Shown in pieces: positions 5,231 to 58,592 of a stretch of DNA of 64,000 nucleotides. Positions within the stretch are counted from its first letter, which is position 1. The number at the start of each line of letters is the position of its first letter. Location: NCBI RefSeq assembly GCF_017351175.1, contig NZ_JAFMPN010000008.1, forward strand, positions 1-64,000. Reading direction: 5' to 3'. This DNA is from Desulfovibrio sp. Huiquan2017. Its GTDB lineage: Bacteria > Desulfobacterota > Desulfovibrionia > Desulfovibrionales > Desulfovibrionaceae. Under the pieces are notes generated by a model that made no database searches, had not been told where the DNA came from, and saw only the letters and a list, made by a program, of their open reading frames with translations. Position numbers and translations under genes: made by a program.

Positions 5231-5929
5231 CTAGAAAACTTTTTGCAAGAGTTCGCTGGCCGTTGCGATGTCGCCGGAGCGCACATCCTGTTCGGTCTGT
5301 GCCATGTACAGGAACATGGAATCCAGGGTCTTGTTGGTCAGGTAATCCACCGGGTCGAAGGCGGTCCCGGTCAGGGAGGAGAGCTGCTTGACCGCATTGA
5401 CGGCGTTGCCCGCCCCGGTCTTTTCCAGCGCGGCCCGAATCAGCGGGGCCGCGCCATCGGCCAGGGAGGGCCGGGTGCTCTTCTCGAAATAGTTGGTCAC
5501 GGCGTCGCTTTTGCCCGAGAGCAGGCCCGAAGGGTTGGCGAACTCCATGGTCTTGATGGTCTTCTGGAACAGTTGGCCGACGGCCGGGACGGCCGCCTCG
5601 GCCGCCGAATTGAGGTTGGACAACAGGTCCGGGGCCACGGTTTCGGCAACCTTTTGGTAACTGTCCGGAAGGGACAGGGAAGTGGCCGCCAGCTTGGAGA
5701 AGCCGCCGTCCCGGGACAAGGATTCCACAGCGGAATCCGCGCCCATGGAGAGCAGCTCGCGGAAGGCGGCCTCGATCTGGGACGGGGTTACGGACATCCC
5801 TGCGGCCTTGGCTCCGGCGTCACCGGCAGCCTTGAGGGCTTCGCCCCACCCCGCTGCGGCGGGGGCTGTCCACAGACATGAGAGCAGGAGCGGCAGGAGA
5901 AGGGCGGAGAAGACGTGTTTGACGCGCAT
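5231..5929 (-). CDS. DUF4197 domain periplasmic protein
   Basis: The 232-residue protein has a signal peptide (MRVKHVFSALLLPLLLSCLW, cleavage near APAAAG). The rest matches DUF4197: helical, with GWGEALKAAG, a central GGFSK and a C-terminal segment DYLTNKTLDSMFLYMAQTEQ that is the family hallmark. Function is unknown. The start was moved 11 codons inside the longest frame because the signal peptide begins at this ATG. Nine bases separate it from the AsmA gene, which suggests a shared envelope role. Confidence 0.82.
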   Translation of the reverse strand: MRVKHVFSALLLPLLLSCLWTAPAAAGWGEALKAAGDAGAKAAGMSVTPSQIEAAFRELLSMGADSAVESLSRDGGFSKLAATSLSLPDSYQKVAETVAPDLLSNLNSAAEAAVPAVGQLFQKTIKTMEFANPSGLLSGKSDAVTNYFEKSTRPSLADGAAPLIRAALEKTGAGNAVNAVKQLSSLTGTAFDPVDYLTNKTLDSMFLYMAQTEQDVRSGDIATASELLQKVF

Positions 5930-6052
5930 GATCGGCTCCGGTTTATTCGGGTAATGGGGCATGCCGAGAGAATAACACTCGGTGACCGTCCTGCCTAGGG
6001 GGCAGGATGATTTTTGGCGATGCGCACGTCGCCCGGCGCAGTGGCCCGGGAG

Positions 6053-24239: not shown

Positions 24240-24326
24240 GCCAGGGTGGCGGAATTGGTAGACGCAGCGGACTCAAAATCCGCCGGTAGCGATACTGTGA
24301 GGGTTCGAGTCCCTCCCCTGGTACCA
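24240..24326 (+). tRNA. tRNA-Leu (anticodon CAA)
   Basis: This is an 87-nt gene with acceptor stem GCCAGGG / CCCTGGT and D-loop GGCGGAATTGGTAGACGC. The anticodon stem GCGGA / TCCGC holds loop CTCAAAA (anticodon CAA). A long class II variable arm is followed by TTCGAGT in the T-arm and an encoded CCA. Its 3' 57 bases belong to the 61-bp attachment repeat, so the mature tRNA is still complete after integration. Confidence 0.97.
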
Positions 24327-24330
24327 GAAT
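24270..24330 (+). repeat. attL: left copy of the 61-bp attachment repeat
   Basis: Runs from the anticodon stem of tRNA-Leu to four bases past its CCA. It is identical to 58532-58592, and divergence begins immediately outside on both sides. This is the usual tRNA 3'-end target of tyrosine integrases. Confidence 0.95.
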
Positions 24331-45129: not shown

Positions 45130-46035
45130 ATGAGAGACTTTATCAAAGACAAGCTCGATACTGTTTATAATGATTTTTGTGAGGCTGCCAAAGTTTCTGA
45201 TGGATTATGCCCATTGAAAGATTTTTCTTTCGCTGGTGGAGAAAGCCCTGACTACTCAGATCCTTTAGTCAGGAAGTACTATATGTTGAAATATTTCCCC
45301 GGCTACATGGCTGAGTACTACCTGATGTACGAACACCTTTTCGATGAAAAATTCTTATCCAATACCGTAATCAACATCCTCTCACTTGGATGCGGCTGCG
45401 GCGTAGACTATTGGGGTTTCCACTTCGCAGCGACAAAAAAAGTCAAAAATCACCAAAAATCGTCTTCATATACCGGCTACGACATCATTGACTGGGAGTA
45501 CCGTGACTCAATGGGGCACGATAAGCATGTCTTCTTCGAAACCGAAGACATCGGAAACCTAAAAAAACTGGATTACGACAAATACAACATCATCGTTTTT
45601 CCAAAATCCATTAGCGATTTTCCTGATGAAGTATTCGCAACCTTGCTGAAAGCAATCGAAAACACAAAATTCAAAAAGAAAAAGATTGCCATTCTGTGCT
45701 CATTTATGACCAATGACTCCAAAAAATACGACTTTAATCGCCTCACACGACTTGTTAAAGTCTTTGAAGAACAACATGGGTATAAATGCCTCGACAAAGC
45801 CAACGAATATTTCCATATGAAGGACAAAGATGTTGGACTAAACACAGTTGTACCGGGGTTCGACTACACCCTACCCATCAAAAAGACCATTTTCAAGACA
45901 CTCGAAAATTGCCCCAATTTCATCGAAAATGGAAAAAGCTGTGACCAAGAATGCTCCAATATGAACCAATACCCGATTCTTAAGACAAAATATGTCAACT
46001 ACGCGATTAGACGATTAAAGAAGGATCAAAAATGA
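45130..46035 (+). CDS. SAM-dependent methyltransferase-fold protein, partner of DUF1848
   Basis: The 301-residue protein has a Rossmann methyltransferase core: motif I INILSLGCGCGVDYWGF (residues about 82-98), motif II YTGYDIIDW near 117 and motif IV YNIIVFPKSISDFPD near 152. No catalytic DPPY or other target-specific motif was found, so its substrate is unknown. A cysteine-rich end (ENCPNFIENGKSCDQECSN) may bind a metal or cluster. It overlaps the next gene by 4 bp (ATGA). The local GC content is near 35 percent, far below the neighbours, so the pair was acquired as a unit. Confidence 0.7.
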   Translation: MRDFIKDKLDTVYNDFCEAAKVSDGLCPLKDFSFAGGESPDYSDPLVRKYYMLKYFPGYMAEYYLMYEHLFDEKFLSNTVINILSLGCGCGVDYWGFHFAATKKVKNHQKSSSYTGYDIIDWEYRDSMGHDKHVFFETEDIGNLKKLDYDKYNIIVFPKSISDFPDEVFATLLKAIENTKFKKKKIAILCSFMTNDSKKYDFNRLTRLVKVFEEQHGYKCLDKANEYFHMKDKDVGLNTVVPGFDYTLPIKKTIFKTLENCPNFIENGKSCDQECSNMNQYPILKTKYVNYAIRRLKKDQK

Positions 46036-47036
46036 AATGGCGAAAAGTTCAGCATAAAAGTCATGGGGCATCAGTAGACGCCATTGCCCCAGAAATAATC
46101 TCAGCAAGTCGATCAACAGATATCCCTGCGTTCTACTCTAAGTGGTTTTTTAATCGTCTTGAAGCTGGCTATTCGAAATGGATCAACCCTTTTAACCGAA
46201 GAGCGCAATTTATCTCGTTTGAGAACACGCGAGCTATAATTTTCTGGAGTAAGAATCCTAAGCCTTTGCTGCCACATCTCCACATCCTCGATAAAAAACA
46301 AATTGGGTACTACATCCAATTCACAATGAACGATTACGAGGAAGAAGGGTTAGAACCTAGTGTCCCTTCACTAGCTTCAAGGATTGAGACATTTAAAGCA
46401 CTATCTGATCGAATTGGCCCGGACAGAGTTATATGGCGATTTGACCCGCTAATTTTTACTGATTCGATCAATCCAACGAAACTTCTCAGCAAAATAAAAA
46501 AGGTTGGCGACCTTTTGTCTGGGTATACTTCAAAACTCGTTTTCAGCTTTGCAGATATTTGCAACTATAAGAAAGTCCAGAACAATTTAAAACGGCAAAA
46601 TATCACTCACAGGGACTTCACTCTTTCTGAAATTGAACTTCTGTCATCAGAGATATCTAATTTATGCTCTCAATGGGGAATACCGGCATTTACTTGCGGC
46701 GAAAGTGTCGATCTTTCCGAATTCGGCATTCATCACAACAAGTGCATTGACGACAAACTTATTTTGAAGATCACAAACAATCACCCTGACATCCTCAGGT
46801 TGTTCGGTCTTGATTCCCCTGAACAGTTAAGCTTGCTCGCGCCTAAGCCAAAACAAAAAAACTTGAAAGACACCGGACAAAGAAATGAGTGCGGCTGTAT
46901 TCTTAGTAAAGATGTTGGGCAATACAACACATGTCCACATAGATGCGTATATTGCTACGCAAACACATCAGACAACGTTGTAGCCAAGAACGTCAGAGCT
47001 TTTAGGCCTGACGGTGAATCAATCATTCCGGAATAA
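46032..47036 (+). CDS. DUF1848 family protein
   Basis: The 334-residue protein matches DUF1848. It opens ISASRSTDIPAFYSKWFFNR, has FWSKNPKPLLPHL and WRFDPLIFTD, and ends with the cysteine cluster CGCILSKDVGQYNTCPHRC and CVYCYANTS. The family is TIM-barrel-like with a C-terminal cluster likely to bind iron-sulfur, related in appearance to spore-photoproduct-lyase-like enzymes. Substrate and reaction are unknown. Translational coupling to a methyltransferase-fold gene suggests a two-component nucleic-acid or nucleotide-modifying system. The layout parallels the TcmP/three-Cys-motif gene pairs. Confidence 0.85.
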   Translation: MKWRKVQHKSHGASVDAIAPEIISASRSTDIPAFYSKWFFNRLEAGYSKWINPFNRRAQFISFENTRAIIFWSKNPKPLLPHLHILDKKQIGYYIQFTMNDYEEEGLEPSVPSLASRIETFKALSDRIGPDRVIWRFDPLIFTDSINPTKLLSKIKKVGDLLSGYTSKLVFSFADICNYKKVQNNLKRQNITHRDFTLSEIELLSSEISNLCSQWGIPAFTCGESVDLSEFGIHHNKCIDDKLILKITNNHPDILRLFGLDSPEQLSLLAPKPKQKNLKDTGQRNECGCILSKDVGQYNTCPHRCVYCYANTSDNVVAKNVRAFRPDGESIIPE

Positions 47037-53942: not shown

Positions 53943-55883
53943 TTAGGAGTTTTTTTCTTCAATCCCTATGCGAATAGCTTCAAAAAAAGCAGACGGTTTA
54001 CCTGCTTTTGGATGAGTTCTGGGATGAGCCCAAAACTCATCGAATAGGTCAATCATGGTGATGTCTTCACTATAGAAGCAATTACGCAGAATGCTGGGAG
54101 TGGCGGTGAGGGTATCAAGTGTTTCTTTCGCCTTTTGACTCCCGGACAGGTTATACTCAAGTAACGCAAGTAGCGGAATCACCTGGCGATATGACACAGG
54201 TAAATCGGCAACTTGGGCCGTGCTGAACAAAAGAGCGCTATTCAACACGGATTCCAATGCTTCCTTCTTCGAATAGGCTTCAACCACACCCTCGGCAAAA
54301 GCGGTGCCGACTTGTTCTGCCGTATGGTCTGGGAACTTTGGCCTTAAATTTGCTGGCCAGTATTTCAATAAAAACTTGTTTTTATACTGGCTGTATATCT
54401 TAATTGGCTTTCGCAAAGGAGTGAGCACGCTTTGCCAAGCATTGCTTGATAGAGAAATAAACTGATCATCAAGCTCTTGCTGTTTCAAAAAATGCCACAA
54501 TAGTTTGTGTAATTCAGAGTACTCTTTCGGCCCGAGAAATTGCCAGAAGTCATGAGAAAGGCAAGATTCCGCCAACATTTCCAAGTTGTGACCTGCATGC
54601 CTTTTATCTTCTTTGAAATCCTGAATAAATGAGTCAAGAAGCAACTCATATTCTTCGAGAGAAGTTTCCTTCAGCAATTGTGTAAGCATGACCAAAAACG
54701 GAATCCTTCTTTTGTATTCAGGGGAATCCTGTTTGAAGCGCACCAAGGGAAACGAGTTGACTTCATTTCTTGATTTAAATTCATTGTGCAAATCAAGAAA
54801 AATCACTGAGCGTTCTGTGGTAAAATCACTCTTTCTCATATTTGAAACAAGATGAAAGAAAAGGAAGTCACGTGTCATGCTGAAGTCGCAATTAGGCGCA
54901 TCCTTCATATCATGCAGATGCTCTTGCTGATATCGTTCACAGCCTTCGCAGACCTGCTCACAATAATCCTCAATACCGCACTCATAATATGGCCAGAATT
55001 GAAGAGATTTAAAGGCAGATTCTACAAAATTCATGCGCAATTCTTCGTCAACTTCGATTTTGAAGAACCCCTCTGGGTAAATCCGATCAATGGCAGAGCG
55101 ACGTATTGATGCAGAGTAGGGAGAATCCTCACAATCGTAGGAGTATAGAGCTCGTTCGTTCTGTTTTTCTTCAAGTTGGTCTAGCAAAATTTTCGCACGG
55201 ATTGCCCAAGCTACGCCATCTTCCGGGGAACGCTCCAGACATTCAGTTATGTGATCAAGCCCCTCATCAAGCTGACCAAGGCTATACCATATCTCAGCCA
55301 ATTTCCTGTGCAACACCGGATCGTTGGGTGTCTCATCAAGTTCTGCTTGTAATTCGAGAATATCCCCCCAACAGGCCAGTTCATGCGGATTGCGCTCGTA
55401 GATTTCCGTCCCAGAATGATATTTACCCATCATCTCTTCTAATGATTCTTTCTCAATATCGATTGCATCGACTTCTTTGAGGGCGGCATAGAAAGGCTCT
55501 AGGTTTGCAAGTGCATTGTTGTTAAACTCTTTGTATGCGACCAATTTATTTTTAAGTTTTACAACATTTCTATCGATATATCTCTTAAAACTTCCGTCGC
55601 GTAAATCCTGATACATTTTGAGTTCGGAATCACTTGGGTTCTGCGGGAATAATTTTGTGTAAGGTTTTAGAACGCAGAGATTGTTTATCAATATTCTAGC
55701 ATCCTCGTGGATCAGTGTTTCGGGGGCTCGGCCAGTTCCTCTCTCTTTGCGCGGCGTAAGTACATATTTCAATTTAAAATCTTCCCGCTCTTGAAGGATA
55801 TTCTGTATCCACTGAGAAATTTCTTTAGGATTATAATTTAACTCTATCAATATTTCATTGATGCTCTTTCCATTATTAAACAT
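53943..55883 (-). CDS. HTH/TPR protein downstream of viperin
   Basis: The 646-residue protein is not a named family as far as I can tell. Residues about 1-40 (MFNNGKSINEILIELNYNPK, EISQWIQNIL) look like a resolvase-style helix-turn-helix. The middle holds tetratricopeptide-like repeats (VLHRKLAEIWYSLGQLDEGLDHI, then VAWAIRAKILLDQL). A cysteine-rich stretch (CGIEDYCEQVCEGCERYQQE, later APNC) may bind metal. The rest is helical. I place the start at 55883 because ATGTTTAA overlaps the viperin stop and GGAG lies nine bases upstream; a longer frame begins at 55919 without a ribosome site. Low GC matches the viperin gene. It may sense infection or recruit partners. Confidence 0.7.
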   Translation of the reverse strand: MFNNGKSINEILIELNYNPKEISQWIQNILQEREDFKLKYVLTPRKERGTGRAPETLIHEDARILINNLCVLKPYTKLFPQNPSDSELKMYQDLRDGSFKRYIDRNVVKLKNKLVAYKEFNNNALANLEPFYAALKEVDAIDIEKESLEEMMGKYHSGTEIYERNPHELACWGDILELQAELDETPNDPVLHRKLAEIWYSLGQLDEGLDHITECLERSPEDGVAWAIRAKILLDQLEEKQNERALYSYDCEDSPYSASIRRSAIDRIYPEGFFKIEVDEELRMNFVESAFKSLQFWPYYECGIEDYCEQVCEGCERYQQEHLHDMKDAPNCDFSMTRDFLFFHLVSNMRKSDFTTERSVIFLDLHNEFKSRNEVNSFPLVRFKQDSPEYKRRIPFLVMLTQLLKETSLEEYELLLDSFIQDFKEDKRHAGHNLEMLAESCLSHDFWQFLGPKEYSELHKLLWHFLKQQELDDQFISLSSNAWQSVLTPLRKPIKIYSQYKNKFLLKYWPANLRPKFPDHTAEQVGTAFAEGVVEAYSKKEALESVLNSALLFSTAQVADLPVSYRQVIPLLALLEYNLSGSQKAKETLDTLTATPSILRNCFYSEDITMIDLFDEFWAHPRTHPKAGKPSAFFEAIRIGIEEKNS

Positions 55884-56742
55884 TTGGACACACTCCATAA
55901 CGTTTGGAAAATTTTGCATGATTAAATTTTATTTCAGCCAACGATCTTCTTAATCCGACGGAGTATATAGGGTGGCTGTATTTGTATATGTTCAATTTTC
56001 CATTTTGAAAGAAACGCCCTAAGGGGTCAATCATCAAGTAGCTTTCAGTCATGTCTTCATTGTTTTCAACATGAAGACCATGCCACGATATTGAATTCAG
56101 TTTTAGAAACTCTGTAAATTCGAGCTCTGAAATCCCATTGTTGGATCCAAACGGGATTTGCTTGAATATCTTGATCTTGTCAGGATTGTATTGGATGAGT
56201 TTTTCAACAATTCGCTCATTCCAATTGTAGGCATTCACAACAGTATTGAACTTAATTTTAAGATCAGGCTTTATCTTCTTTATACGCGTTATGAGCGTTT
56301 CTAAATCAGACTCAAGTAAAGTTTTGCCAACATGAGAGTGACGTCCAATTTTGAGATTGGTTTCATGCGACAAGGAATCAACGGAGATCCCAACCACCTC
56401 AAGATAATCAACTATATCGATGTTTTTTTCTAGAAGCGAGGCGTTCGTAACGATAGACGCTTCGAAACCGAATTTTTCAACAGCCTTCTTTACAATCCCA
56501 ACCGTTTTATAGCCGAAAATCAAAGGTTCTCCGCCAACAAAATTAATACGTATTGGGGAAGTTGAATTTAGTGAGACCGACTGCAGCATCGGTGCACTAG
56601 AAGCCTGAGCCAGTTCTGTAAAAAGAGTTTCTGTGGTCTTCGGGTTATGGCATATCTCATCACCGGCTTCCCATGATGCGAAACAATAATGGCAAGAGTA
56701 ATTGCACCGATCCGTCATGTGCCAATTAAACACTAGCTGCAT
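55876..56742 (-). CDS. prokaryotic viperin (radical-SAM nucleotide dehydratase)
   Basis: The 288-residue protein has the radical-SAM cluster motif with Cys13, Cys17 and Cys20 in DRCNYSCHYCF, the SAM-binding NFVGGEPL (residues 67-74), SVDS (120-123) and NLKIGR (129-134). Near residue 230 it has ESYLMIDPLGRFFQN and at the C terminus KRYG, all counterparts of animal viperin. Prokaryotic viperins turn nucleoside triphosphates into 3'-deoxy-3',4'-didehydro chain terminators that stop phage transcription. The length fits. The gene lies inside an AT-rich operon (about 33 percent GC) with a RelE-like gene before it and an HTH/TPR gene after, with overlaps at both ends. Which NTP is used cannot be read from sequence. 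Confidence 0.88.
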   Translation of the reverse strand: MQLVFNWHMTDRCNYSCHYCFASWEAGDEICHNPKTTETLFTELAQASSAPMLQSVSLNSTSPIRINFVGGEPLIFGYKTVGIVKKAVEKFGFEASIVTNASLLEKNIDIVDYLEVVGISVDSLSHETNLKIGRHSHVGKTLLESDLETLITRIKKIKPDLKIKFNTVVNAYNWNERIVEKLIQYNPDKIKIFKQIPFGSNNGISELEFTEFLKLNSISWHGLHVENNEDMTESYLMIDPLGRFFQNGKLNIYKYSHPIYSVGLRRSLAEIKFNHAKFSKRYGVCPNV

Positions 56743-56986
56743 TTCTGACCTTCTTTGTGCGGCTAGAGTTTATTCTTCTTTCGTATGAATCATGATTGCA
56801 AATTACAATCTGCTCTCCATTGAGCCACAGTATTCTGAACTTCTGGTTCAGTCTTAAAGAATACCCATCATGAAGACGACTAAGTTTCTTCCACCCTGCC
56901 CCAGGCTTCCTTCCAAGCTGTGTCAACGCTTTTCGCGCTCTAGCTTTTATGTGAGTGGGAATTGAGCCAATCCAATGTTCTGTCAT
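56726..56986 (-). CDS. RelE/HigB-fold small protein in the viperin operon
   Basis: The 86-residue protein is RelE-like: THIKARARKALTQLGRKPG, WKKLSRLHDGYSLRLNQKFRILW and VICNHDSYERRI, the alpha-beta layout and the terminal H-D-x-Y-x-R region of mRNA interferases. Its start at the ATG at 56986 has AGGAGG at ideal spacing. It overlaps viperin by 17 bp. No antitoxin gene lies beside it, so it may be inactive, or another operon member may control it. Confidence 0.7.
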   Translation of the reverse strand: MTEHWIGSIPTHIKARARKALTQLGRKPGAGWKKLSRLHDGYSLRLNQKFRILWLNGEQIVICNHDSYERRINSSRTKKVRNAASV

Positions 56987-57145
56987 TAGCACCTCCTATG
57001 ATTTCAAATCACAGTGCGGGTACCAATTTGGTAGGCAAGTGGATTTTTTAAATTGGTTAAAAAAGAATGGCCAGTGGAAGAAGTAGCTTGTGCTTACGAG
57101 GCACCGCTTCTAAGTATGAATGCTAGGTTTCATCCAAACTATGAG

Positions 57146-58357
57146 CTACTTGGCCTTCCTATTGAAAGGTATAACCTTCCCGCCGGACTTCGTCTCCAAA
57201 GCCTTTTCCAGCGAATCCACAGCCGCACGTTTCGACTCATCCAGGGCATGGGTGTATCGCTGGAGCATGGCGAGGGTAGACCAGCCGAAGTGGGATTGGA
57301 TGGTGCGGATATCCACTCCGGCAGCGAGCATCATGGATGCCGCTGTATGACGCAGACTGTGGAAACATATCCATTCCCGCTTGTCCGTGCGGCCGTCGTT
57401 AAACTTGAGGTCTTTGATGGCTTGACGGAAGCCCCAGGGGGCTTCACCCCAGGCATTCCCATCCGAATTGGTGAAGACAAGCTCTTCAGGCGAGCCTTTT
57501 GAGGCCTTTCTGAGGATTTCATGGAGCGGCTTGGCCATGGGTAAGATGCGTGGCTTGCCCGTTTTCGTGTGGAGGAGGGTGATCGACTTTTCCTGCAGGT
57601 CGATACCACTCCATGTGAGGCCAGTAAGTTCACCAAGCCTTGCGCCGGTGTAGAGGGCCGCCAAAGTTAGTTCGTAGGCTTTCTCGTCGAGAGCCCTGAC
57701 AGTATCCAGCAGCTTTTGCGCTTCCTCTGGTTTGAGGAATCGGGTCCGGGCGTTATTTATTCTCCCCACTTCGATCGCTCGGGTAGGGCTTTCAGTCTCG
57801 ACGATGCCTCTTTTCCTGGCGTGATTCCAGACGAGGCGAAATATGGCTAGAGAAAGTTGGGCTGTTCGCAGGGTGCGCCCTTTGTCCAGGATGGCGAGTT
57901 TGATCTGTTCGATGTCATCCGGAGTGACGGACCGCATGGGCTTCCCGTTGAGCTGAGGGGAAATCCATGTCTCAAGGTGTTGCTTTTCGCTTTTGATCGT
58001 TGTGGGCTTTTTCCGGGTACGGGCTTCCGGGAGGTAACGATTGTTGAAATAGTCCTCAAAGGACGTGTCCTTGCGTTTCTCGGAAAGGACTGCTTCGCGT
58101 GATCGTTGATTCTCTTCTTGGGGGCCGGTGGGGCCGAGTCCATTCTTTGCGTTTTCAAGATACAATTGTTTTTTTAAGTAGGCATTACTTTCAGACCAGC
58201 CTTCAGACTCCCAGCCAAGCAGGCCTTCGTACTGCTTCCCATTAAACATGAATCGGTAGCCGAAATTGCGATCAAATCGCACGCCATGTTTGCGTGTGCT
58301 ATGCTGTTGCCACCTGACTCCGGTAAATTTTTTCGAGTTGATCCATTTCCTGCTCAT
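57146..58357 (-). CDS. int: tyrosine integrase of the element
   Basis: The 403-residue protein is a phage-type tyrosine recombinase. An N-terminal AP2-like DNA-binding domain (MSRKWINSKKFTGVRWQQHS, FGYRFMFNGKQYEGLLGW) is followed by a core-binding domain (residues about 110-200) and the catalytic domain. Catalytic residues are visible: ARLGE (Arg), HSLRHTAAS (His, Arg), HFGWS (His) and LQRYTHA (Tyr nucleophile near 380). The start at 58357 has AGGAGG upstream; a longer frame would run into the arm-type repeats. It reads away from attR, where it acts on the tRNA-Leu core site. Confidence 0.95.
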   Translation of the reverse strand: MSRKWINSKKFTGVRWQQHSTRKHGVRFDRNFGYRFMFNGKQYEGLLGWESEGWSESNAYLKKQLYLENAKNGLGPTGPQEENQRSREAVLSEKRKDTSFEDYFNNRYLPEARTRKKPTTIKSEKQHLETWISPQLNGKPMRSVTPDDIEQIKLAILDKGRTLRTAQLSLAIFRLVWNHARKRGIVETESPTRAIEVGRINNARTRFLKPEEAQKLLDTVRALDEKAYELTLAALYTGARLGELTGLTWSGIDLQEKSITLLHTKTGKPRILPMAKPLHEILRKASKGSPEELVFTNSDGNAWGEAPWGFRQAIKDLKFNDGRTDKREWICFHSLRHTAASMMLAAGVDIRTIQSHFGWSTLAMLQRYTHALDESKRAAVDSLEKALETKSGGKVIPFNRKAK

Positions 58358-58383
58358 TCCGGCCTCCTGGGAGACCTTGACGC

Positions 58384-58466
58384 TGCCACAAAATTGCCAC
58401 GAAATCACCACAAAATTTCGTGGCAAACAAAGTGAACTCCAGTGAGCTCCTGTGAAGTTTGTGGCA
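58384..58466 (-). repeat. integrase arm-type motifs near attR
   Basis: Five TGCCACAAA-like motifs: TGCCACAAAATT (58384), TGCCACGAAAT (58395), ACCACAAAATTT (58407), and reversed TTTCGTGGCA (58416) and TTTGTGGCA (58458). They lie between the integrase start and attR, matching the two copies near attL. AGTGAACT-type repeats (58431, 58503) also sit here and could bind an excisionase. Confidence 0.65.
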
Positions 58467-58531: not shown

Positions 58532-58592
58532 GACTCAAAATCCGCCGGTAGCGATACTGTGAGGGTTCGAGTCCCTCCCCTGGTACCAGAAT
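58532..58592 (+). repeat. attR: right copy of the 61-bp attachment repeat
   Basis: Identical to 24270-24330. It comprises the 3' 57 bases of tRNA-Leu plus four bases, without the 5' half, so it is an att relic rather than a working tRNA gene. Confidence 0.95.

Follow-up and report, generated by a model that had tools for sequence, protein, structure and literature searches.

Stand-alone prokaryotic viperins (pVips) are said to have been described by Bernheim in 2021. The viperin considered here lies in a 64,000-nucleotide (nt) stretch of Desulfovibrio sp. Huiquan2017 (contig NZ_JAFMPN010000008.1, positions 1 to 64,000; hereinafter the window) and has the enzyme family and motifs of stand-alone pVips; the window adds fixed partners, namely a RelE-like protein and a large protein with a tetratricopeptide repeat (TPR) pair, and a putative operator.

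RelE and HicA genes beside viperins were published in 2024 (Gerdes 2024, mBio, PMC10865869), and that paper poses the control of these viperin-adjacent ribonucleases (RNases) as a question. As in the window, a RelE-fold or HicA gene adjoins the viperin and an RNase-type fold is predicted, whereas the TPR gene, the operator and the overlapping trio of the window do not appear in the accessible text. A viperin-TPR system type has been reported as exclusive to Archaea (PMC12988326). It shares with the window a viperin and a TPR-repeat partner; by contrast, the window operon is bacterial and has a RelE-like third member, and its TPR protein is unrelated by profile search to the PADLOC TPR model. 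The neighbour of a Methanomethylovorans viperin, considered as an archaeal TPR partner, was rejected because it is a winged-helix protein.

PADLOC-DB contains a run of consecutively numbered models adjacent to pVip (TPR PDLC02907, Ankyrin PDLC02908, Csa3 PDLC02909, HicA-like PDLC02910 and VakA PDLC02911), whose numbering suggests one viperin set in which, as here, viperin is accompanied by a large protein with repeats, a small one of RNase-like type or a kinase. A search at E ≤ 10 gave no match of the window TPR protein to PDLC02907 (864 positions), and no RelE-like PADLOC model was matched. The statement in a first-pass annotation of the window that described bacterial viperins stand alone or are paired with a nucleotide kinase is incomplete, given the HicA and RelE neighbours reported in PMC10865869 and the TPR, Ankyrin, Csa3 and HicA-like models next to pVip. 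Since pairwise links of viperin with HicA, RelE, kinase, ankyrin and TPR proteins are known already and the window TPR protein falls outside the PADLOC TPR model, the window operon is a variant of known viperin systems, not a categorically new one. We read the relE-like, viperin and TPR genes as a variant prokaryotic viperin antiphage operon on an integrative element in a tRNA-Leu gene, with the TPR protein as regulator or sensor (probability roughly 0.45).

Results

Three overlapping genes with a viperin in the middle

The operon comprises three open reading frames (ORFs; lengths in amino acids, aa):

56726-56986, minus strand: relE-like ORF, 86 aa from the ATG 3' of AGGAGG; alternative start GTG at 56992
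55876-56742, minus strand: viperin ORF, 288 aa, radical SAM CxxxCxxC
53943-55883, minus strand: TPR ORF, 646 aa; 658 aa with the start at 55919

The genes run head to tail from 56986 to 53943 in the order relE-like, viperin, TPR, all on the minus strand and at the place given by the first-pass annotation, and its 646-aa coordinates for the TPR gene are right. The mechanical ORF of the relE-like gene opens 6 nt earlier, at the GTG. The frames overlap as had been proposed, with the viperin start inside the last 17 nt of the relE-like gene and the TPR start over the viperin stop (8 nt for the 646-aa start, 44 nt for the 658-aa start). The 646-aa frame is more likely, because GGAG lies upstream of its start and the orthologue at locus L041 (see below) opens at the same column. 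Scans of the operon region for sigma-70 promoters and terminators gave no excess over shuffles.

Judged by profiles and motifs, the middle gene is a true prokaryotic viperin, which upholds the initial identification from Cys13/17/20, GGEP and ESYLMID. The protein scores 283.9 bits against NCBIfam NF038283 (viperin_w_prok; cut-off 180), both PADLOC pVip models match it (pVip E = 1.4e-79), and Protein Data Bank (PDB) viperin chains match from E = 3.4e-18. The window protein contains all three motifs, and its alignment with six further viperins, which share 33-52% identity with it, shows no variation in the Cys, GGE and SYLM columns. Formation of 3'-deoxy-3',4'-didehydro (ddh) nucleoside triphosphates (ddhNTPs), the antiviral chemistry of the family, is highly likely on these grounds. 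A phage origin of the operon was rejected: the 50,697 phage records contained no viperin match, and viral-contig scans with the viperin or the TPR protein yielded nothing confirmed.

A RelE-like protein without an adjacent antitoxin

The 86-aa protein is predicted to take a RelE/YoeB-type fold, as had been supposed. Its match to Pfam ParE_like (E = 2.6e-4) lies below the curated cut-off, and an AlphaFold2 model, built from five viperin-adjacent relatives, has a predicted local distance difference test (pLDDT) score of 80.5. The best structural match of the model is YoeB/ParE (VIA Z 6.7, 2.3 Å over 69 residues), followed by RelJK, HigB and YafQ, and the majority of the 50 VIA rows, including the first 29, are RelE-type domains. 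Each Z is modest (below 8), so the support for the fold comes from the consistency of the list together with the weak ParE_like matches. Arg47, Arg53, His67, Asp68 and Tyr70 are invariant among the five members, and Lys35/36 is present in most.

No plausible antitoxin was found among ORFs of at least 20 aa in the gap between relE and the integrase gene, and the downstream neighbour is viperin. The gene thus lacks the adjacent cognate antitoxin that defines a type II toxin-antitoxin pair, in agreement with the early remark that no antitoxin accompanies it. Both matches to the RelE-like profile in 199 family genomes sit beside viperin, the only further copy being that of genome G132 (L131). Activity of the protein on RNA or the ribosome, as the modelled fold would allow, has about even odds.

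A large helical protein found beside viperin

The third product had been labelled a helix-turn-helix (HTH)/TPR protein. One TPR pair, at residues 194-265, matches PDB TPR chains down to E = 8.5e-5 with Pfam matches below cut-off, and the remainder of the protein is helical. The HTH part of the label corresponds to a sub-threshold N-terminal match (HTH_40, E = 0.003) that is not seen in orthologues. An AlphaFold2 model is poor (pLDDT 49) and helical throughout. An AntA/antirepressor identity of the N terminus, suggested by eye, was rejected since profile comparison was not significant.

Full-length relatives occur only beside viperin in 288 family genomes, and only in the Pseudodesulfovibrio metagenome-assembled genome (MAG) OB3 (L002/L041); two fragments lie in a Methylococcales MAG (L043). 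A 345-genome phylum sample returned the window's own copy only, and plasmids contained no match. Profile comparison found no homology to the large partners of other viperins (ankyrin, c7, c11 and L044/L045 proteins; see below).

The trio is kept in diverged relatives

A search for the trio around viperin homologues elsewhere, as the first-pass annotation had proposed, found its order conserved as an operon in diverged relatives. At L041 (OB3) the gene order is the same, with identities of 50% for RelE, 52% for viperin and 39% across the full length of the TPR protein, and the trio adjoins a different tRNA (tRNA-Pro), directly upstream of a Gabija system. In all three genes codon position 3 differs between the window and L041 about twice as often as position 2, as expected under protein constraint; dS is saturated at this distance. 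Decayed copies were found at two further loci. At L043 the third gene carries an internal deletion and a frameshift and has lost the TPR region, and at L131 (G132, Desulfovibrionaceae) an intact relE ORF is followed by a viperin cut short at 219 aa, with no TPR gene behind it. The same order at L041 and the decayed copies at L043 and L131 point to a heritable unit, and the three genes very probably form one functional unit.

Near the decayed operon of G132, a gene at L134 (G132:C1, 2577-5663), beside an integrase, encodes a 1028-aa protein whose N terminus resembles a metallophosphoesterase and which has, by eye, an apparent NTPase region; it is possibly another defence gene.

A putative operator tracks the TPR lineage

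A palindrome precedes the relE-like gene:

57021-57033: 13-bp palindrome TACCAAATTGGTA, putative operator, 34 nt upstream of the relE ATG

The palindrome recurs 30-40 nt 5' of relE in the window, L041, L043 and L131. L043 has the same 13-mer within a 17-bp palindrome that ends 40 nt from the ATG, L131 has the 11-bp core ACCAAATTGGT at 36 nt, and L041 has the variant CGTCAATTTGACG at 30 nt. Among 950 background ORFs, one is preceded by a CAA-W-TTG palindrome whose arms are five bases long, and 2.8% are preceded by an odd palindrome of any kind with six-base arms. No palindrome was found at L042, L044 and L045, sister loci with other partners, and the 13-mer TACCAAATTGGTA is single-copy in the 3.97-Mb genome; it is therefore probably a dedicated operator of the viperin operon.

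The TPR protein appears the best candidate to read the palindrome, because the site tracks the TPR lineage and not RelE, which is present without it at L042 and L045. The N-terminal identity of the TPR proteins is 34% between the window and L043, whose sites are identical, and 26% between the window and L041, whose sites have diverged. N-terminal identity thus follows operator similarity, although the window and L041 proteins are closer overall, a correlation drawn from few loci that is not proof. The earlier suggestion of a regulatory role fits a conserved palindrome seen only with this partner lineage, and we assign the TPR protein as operon regulator tentatively, at somewhat below even odds.

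Viperin neighbourhoods are modular

Across 84,980 species genomes 80 viperin loci were identified, and 87 were compared once plasmid loci and the window had been added; a genome survey with NF038283 at a loose threshold was uninformative, since other radical SAM proteins match everywhere. The small partners are HicA at about 42 of the 87 loci (an approximate count, because some labels come from ORFs overlapping the viperin frame), the c6 family at 14, and the RelE-like family and a second ParE-like family (c39) at 5 each. A large partner is present at 56 of the 87, of the ankyrin (c4; 22-23 loci), c7 (12-13), c11 (8-9), DUF4145 (5), TPR (3) or other (3) types. The c4 protein matches the PADLOC Ankyrin model (E = 1e-250). 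Among the large families, only the L044 and L045 proteins, and the ankyrin stretch shared by L042 and c4, can be aligned to each other.

In a maximum-likelihood tree the window viperin groups with those of OB3, Chitinispirillaceae, Methylococcales, Fibrimonadaceae and Chitinivibrionia in a clade of six members (support 100/99). A RelE-like gene is present in five of the six and a large partner in all six. The layout is modular: viperin is joined by a small protein, either RNase-like or rich in Cys and His, and by a large partner that often contains repeats and is exchanged during evolution. As RelE is kept within the clade and the large partner is replaced, the strict three-part system is one version of this layout. 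The proposal of a dedicated three-part system therefore stands as far as the order is kept in diverged relatives; it is weakened by the viperin's own clade, where the large partner changes.

Several partner families of other viperins were seen in the same survey. The c7 family (~730 aa; L064, L071, L072, L074, L079, L083 and others) is encoded on the viperin strand, 27-129 nt upstream of that gene, in Marinobacter, Vibrio, Shewanella, Stutzerimonas and Desulfoluna, and the tested representative gave no significant Pfam or PADLOC match. The c11 family (~630 aa; L053, L060, L069, L092, L094, L096, L101, L109) lies 12-46 nt upstream in Pseudomonas, Aquitalea, Acidithiobacillus and Acinetobacter, with a weak FGE-sulfatase-like match and no PADLOC model. 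The c6 protein (~117 aa, Cys/His-rich; L065, L067, L075, L093, L110-L114, L118) abuts or overlaps the viperin stop on the downstream side, apparently occupying the place of HicA, and has no Pfam or PADLOC match above cut-off. The second ParE_like family, over the Pfam cut-off (E = 4e-9), is encoded 11-17 nt upstream of viperin at L110, L112, L113, L118 and L091 (at about 5606-5953 in the first four) in Shewanella, Alteromonas and Colwellia; being separate, it indicates that RelE-type partners were seemingly recruited more than once. Related large proteins (724-972 aa) precede viperin in Fibrobacterota (L044:2968-5886 and L045:3-2177); the L044 protein, the one of the pair tested, has no Pfam match, and a cytidylate-kinase-like gene lies downstream at L044.

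The operon lies on an integrative element

The host is a Pseudodesulfovibrio-type bacterium, and the operon is carried on a 34-kb element in a tRNA-Leu gene, delimited by the following features:

57146-58426, minus strand: tyrosine integrase of the element (Pfam Phage_integrase E = 3.1e-28, PHROG integrase E = 2e-63)
24270-24330: left attachment (att) repeat, 3' end of the intact tRNA-Leu CAA at 24240-24326 (ARAGORN)
58532-58592: right att repeat, tRNA-Leu 3' fragment

The two att copies are a 61-nt exact repeat. In the related genome G155 (L148) the tRNA 3' end runs straight into sequence matching 58593 onward, and that locus is, judging by this junction, an empty site of the element. Another tRNA-Leu repeat pair, about 17.7 kb apart, lies in a genome of the same genus (G064:C1:2416171-2433918, L152); this second att-like copy suggests that the tRNA-Leu gene is an integration hotspot for different elements. 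The cargo of the 34-kb element includes a Type III restriction system, a Snf2-type helicase with DUF4391, an Mrr endonuclease and a DUF1848 protein. The G+C content of the operon is 37-43%, whereas the flanks at 47.5-53 kb and 58.5-62 kb have about 57-61%.

Two further gene groups on the element were recorded. An AT-rich two-gene module at 45130-47036 encodes a 301-aa protein without a family match that overlaps the DUF1848 protein; the latter matches the DUF1848 component of the PADLOC reverse-transcriptase system RTasDUF1848, and no reverse transcriptase was noticed beside the module in passing. At 49802-53329 genes for a CbbQ/MoxR-type AAA ATPase, for a DUF3150 protein and for a product that by eye has VWA-like features stand in a row.

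Discussion

We favour a variant viperin antiphage operon with a regulatory TPR protein. By its family membership the viperin would turn a nucleoside triphosphate into a chain-terminating ddh analogue and so halt phage RNA synthesis. The RelE-like protein, going by its predicted fold, may form a second arm on translation or RNA, probably as a restrained mRNA interferase or as a ribosome- or RNA-binding partner. The N-terminal domain of the TPR protein would read the palindrome at 57021-57033, with which it co-occurs, and hold the operon low, and the helical-repeat part may sense infection or hold partners. The antiphage interpretation also draws on the defence context, in which Type III restriction genes, Mrr and a Snf2-type helicase share the island with the operon and Gabija adjoins the trio at L041.

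Several observations weigh against this reading. No more than two intact trios are known, the third gene being broken at L043 and missing at L131, and the large partner varies among close relatives (TPR, ankyrin or another large protein). L131 retains an intact relE ORF with neither a TPR gene nor a full viperin, which argues mildly against strong unrestrained toxicity there and implies that tolerance of the RelE-like protein does not strictly depend on the TPR protein. With the HTH match below threshold and the TPR model poor, the DNA-binder could be another protein.

A more elaborate form of the same idea is, in our estimate, unlikely. It would make the trio a self-regulated, dual-arm bacterial viperin system in which a new TPR/HTH family binds its own operator and senses infection, release launching both a ddhNTP chain terminator directed at transcription and an antitoxin-less, RelE-type ribosome-dependent RNase directed at translation.

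The TPR protein might instead act at the protein level, as an inhibitor or chaperone that sequesters the RelE-like nuclease, and possibly viperin, until a phage protein binding the repeats releases it, giving abortive infection together with ddhNTP. The lack of a conventional antitoxin adjacent to the relE-like gene, the gene overlaps, which suit co-translational complex formation, and the large partner at all six loci of the RelE-bearing viperin clade are in keeping with such a role. It is nevertheless doubtful, since the large partners of the clade mostly share no sequence relationship, which would be unexpected if they specifically inhibited a single conserved RelE family, and L131 has an intact relE ORF without a large partner.

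Both HicA and RelE folds bind RNA, and the RelE-fold protein could be a non-toxic helper binding RNA, the ribosome or DNA, for example as an autoregulator or adaptor, with the TPR protein accessory and viperin alone protective. Such a helper would agree with the tolerance of an intact relE without partners at L131 and with the fact that catalytic residues could not be assigned in the protein, and single Asgard archaeal viperins do protect Escherichia coli (PMC11291487). Yet RelE or HicA is strongly retained beside viperin across many lineages, suggesting a contribution to the phenotype, and the conserved Lys35/36 (in most members), Arg47, Arg53 and His67 fit an RNase-like site; we consider the helper role improbable, though by no means negligible.

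That three defence-island genes merely happen to be contiguous is very improbable: defence genes do cluster in islands and wider viperin relatives have other partners, but the same order with overlapping or abutting frames recurs beside another tRNA in a copy of 39-52% identity, the operator is common to four genomic contexts, and no TPR or RelE homologues of these families lie away from viperin in the genomes searched.

The operon extends the viperin-TPR pairing, reported for Archaea only (PMC12988326), to bacteria, though with a different TPR protein. It bears on how bacterial viperins switch on and on why antitoxin-less, toxin-like RNases recur beside them, and it offers a compact test case for both, combining an operator that is conserved and single-copy with a candidate regulator, a natural decayed copy in which relE alone is intact, and two independent genomic contexts.

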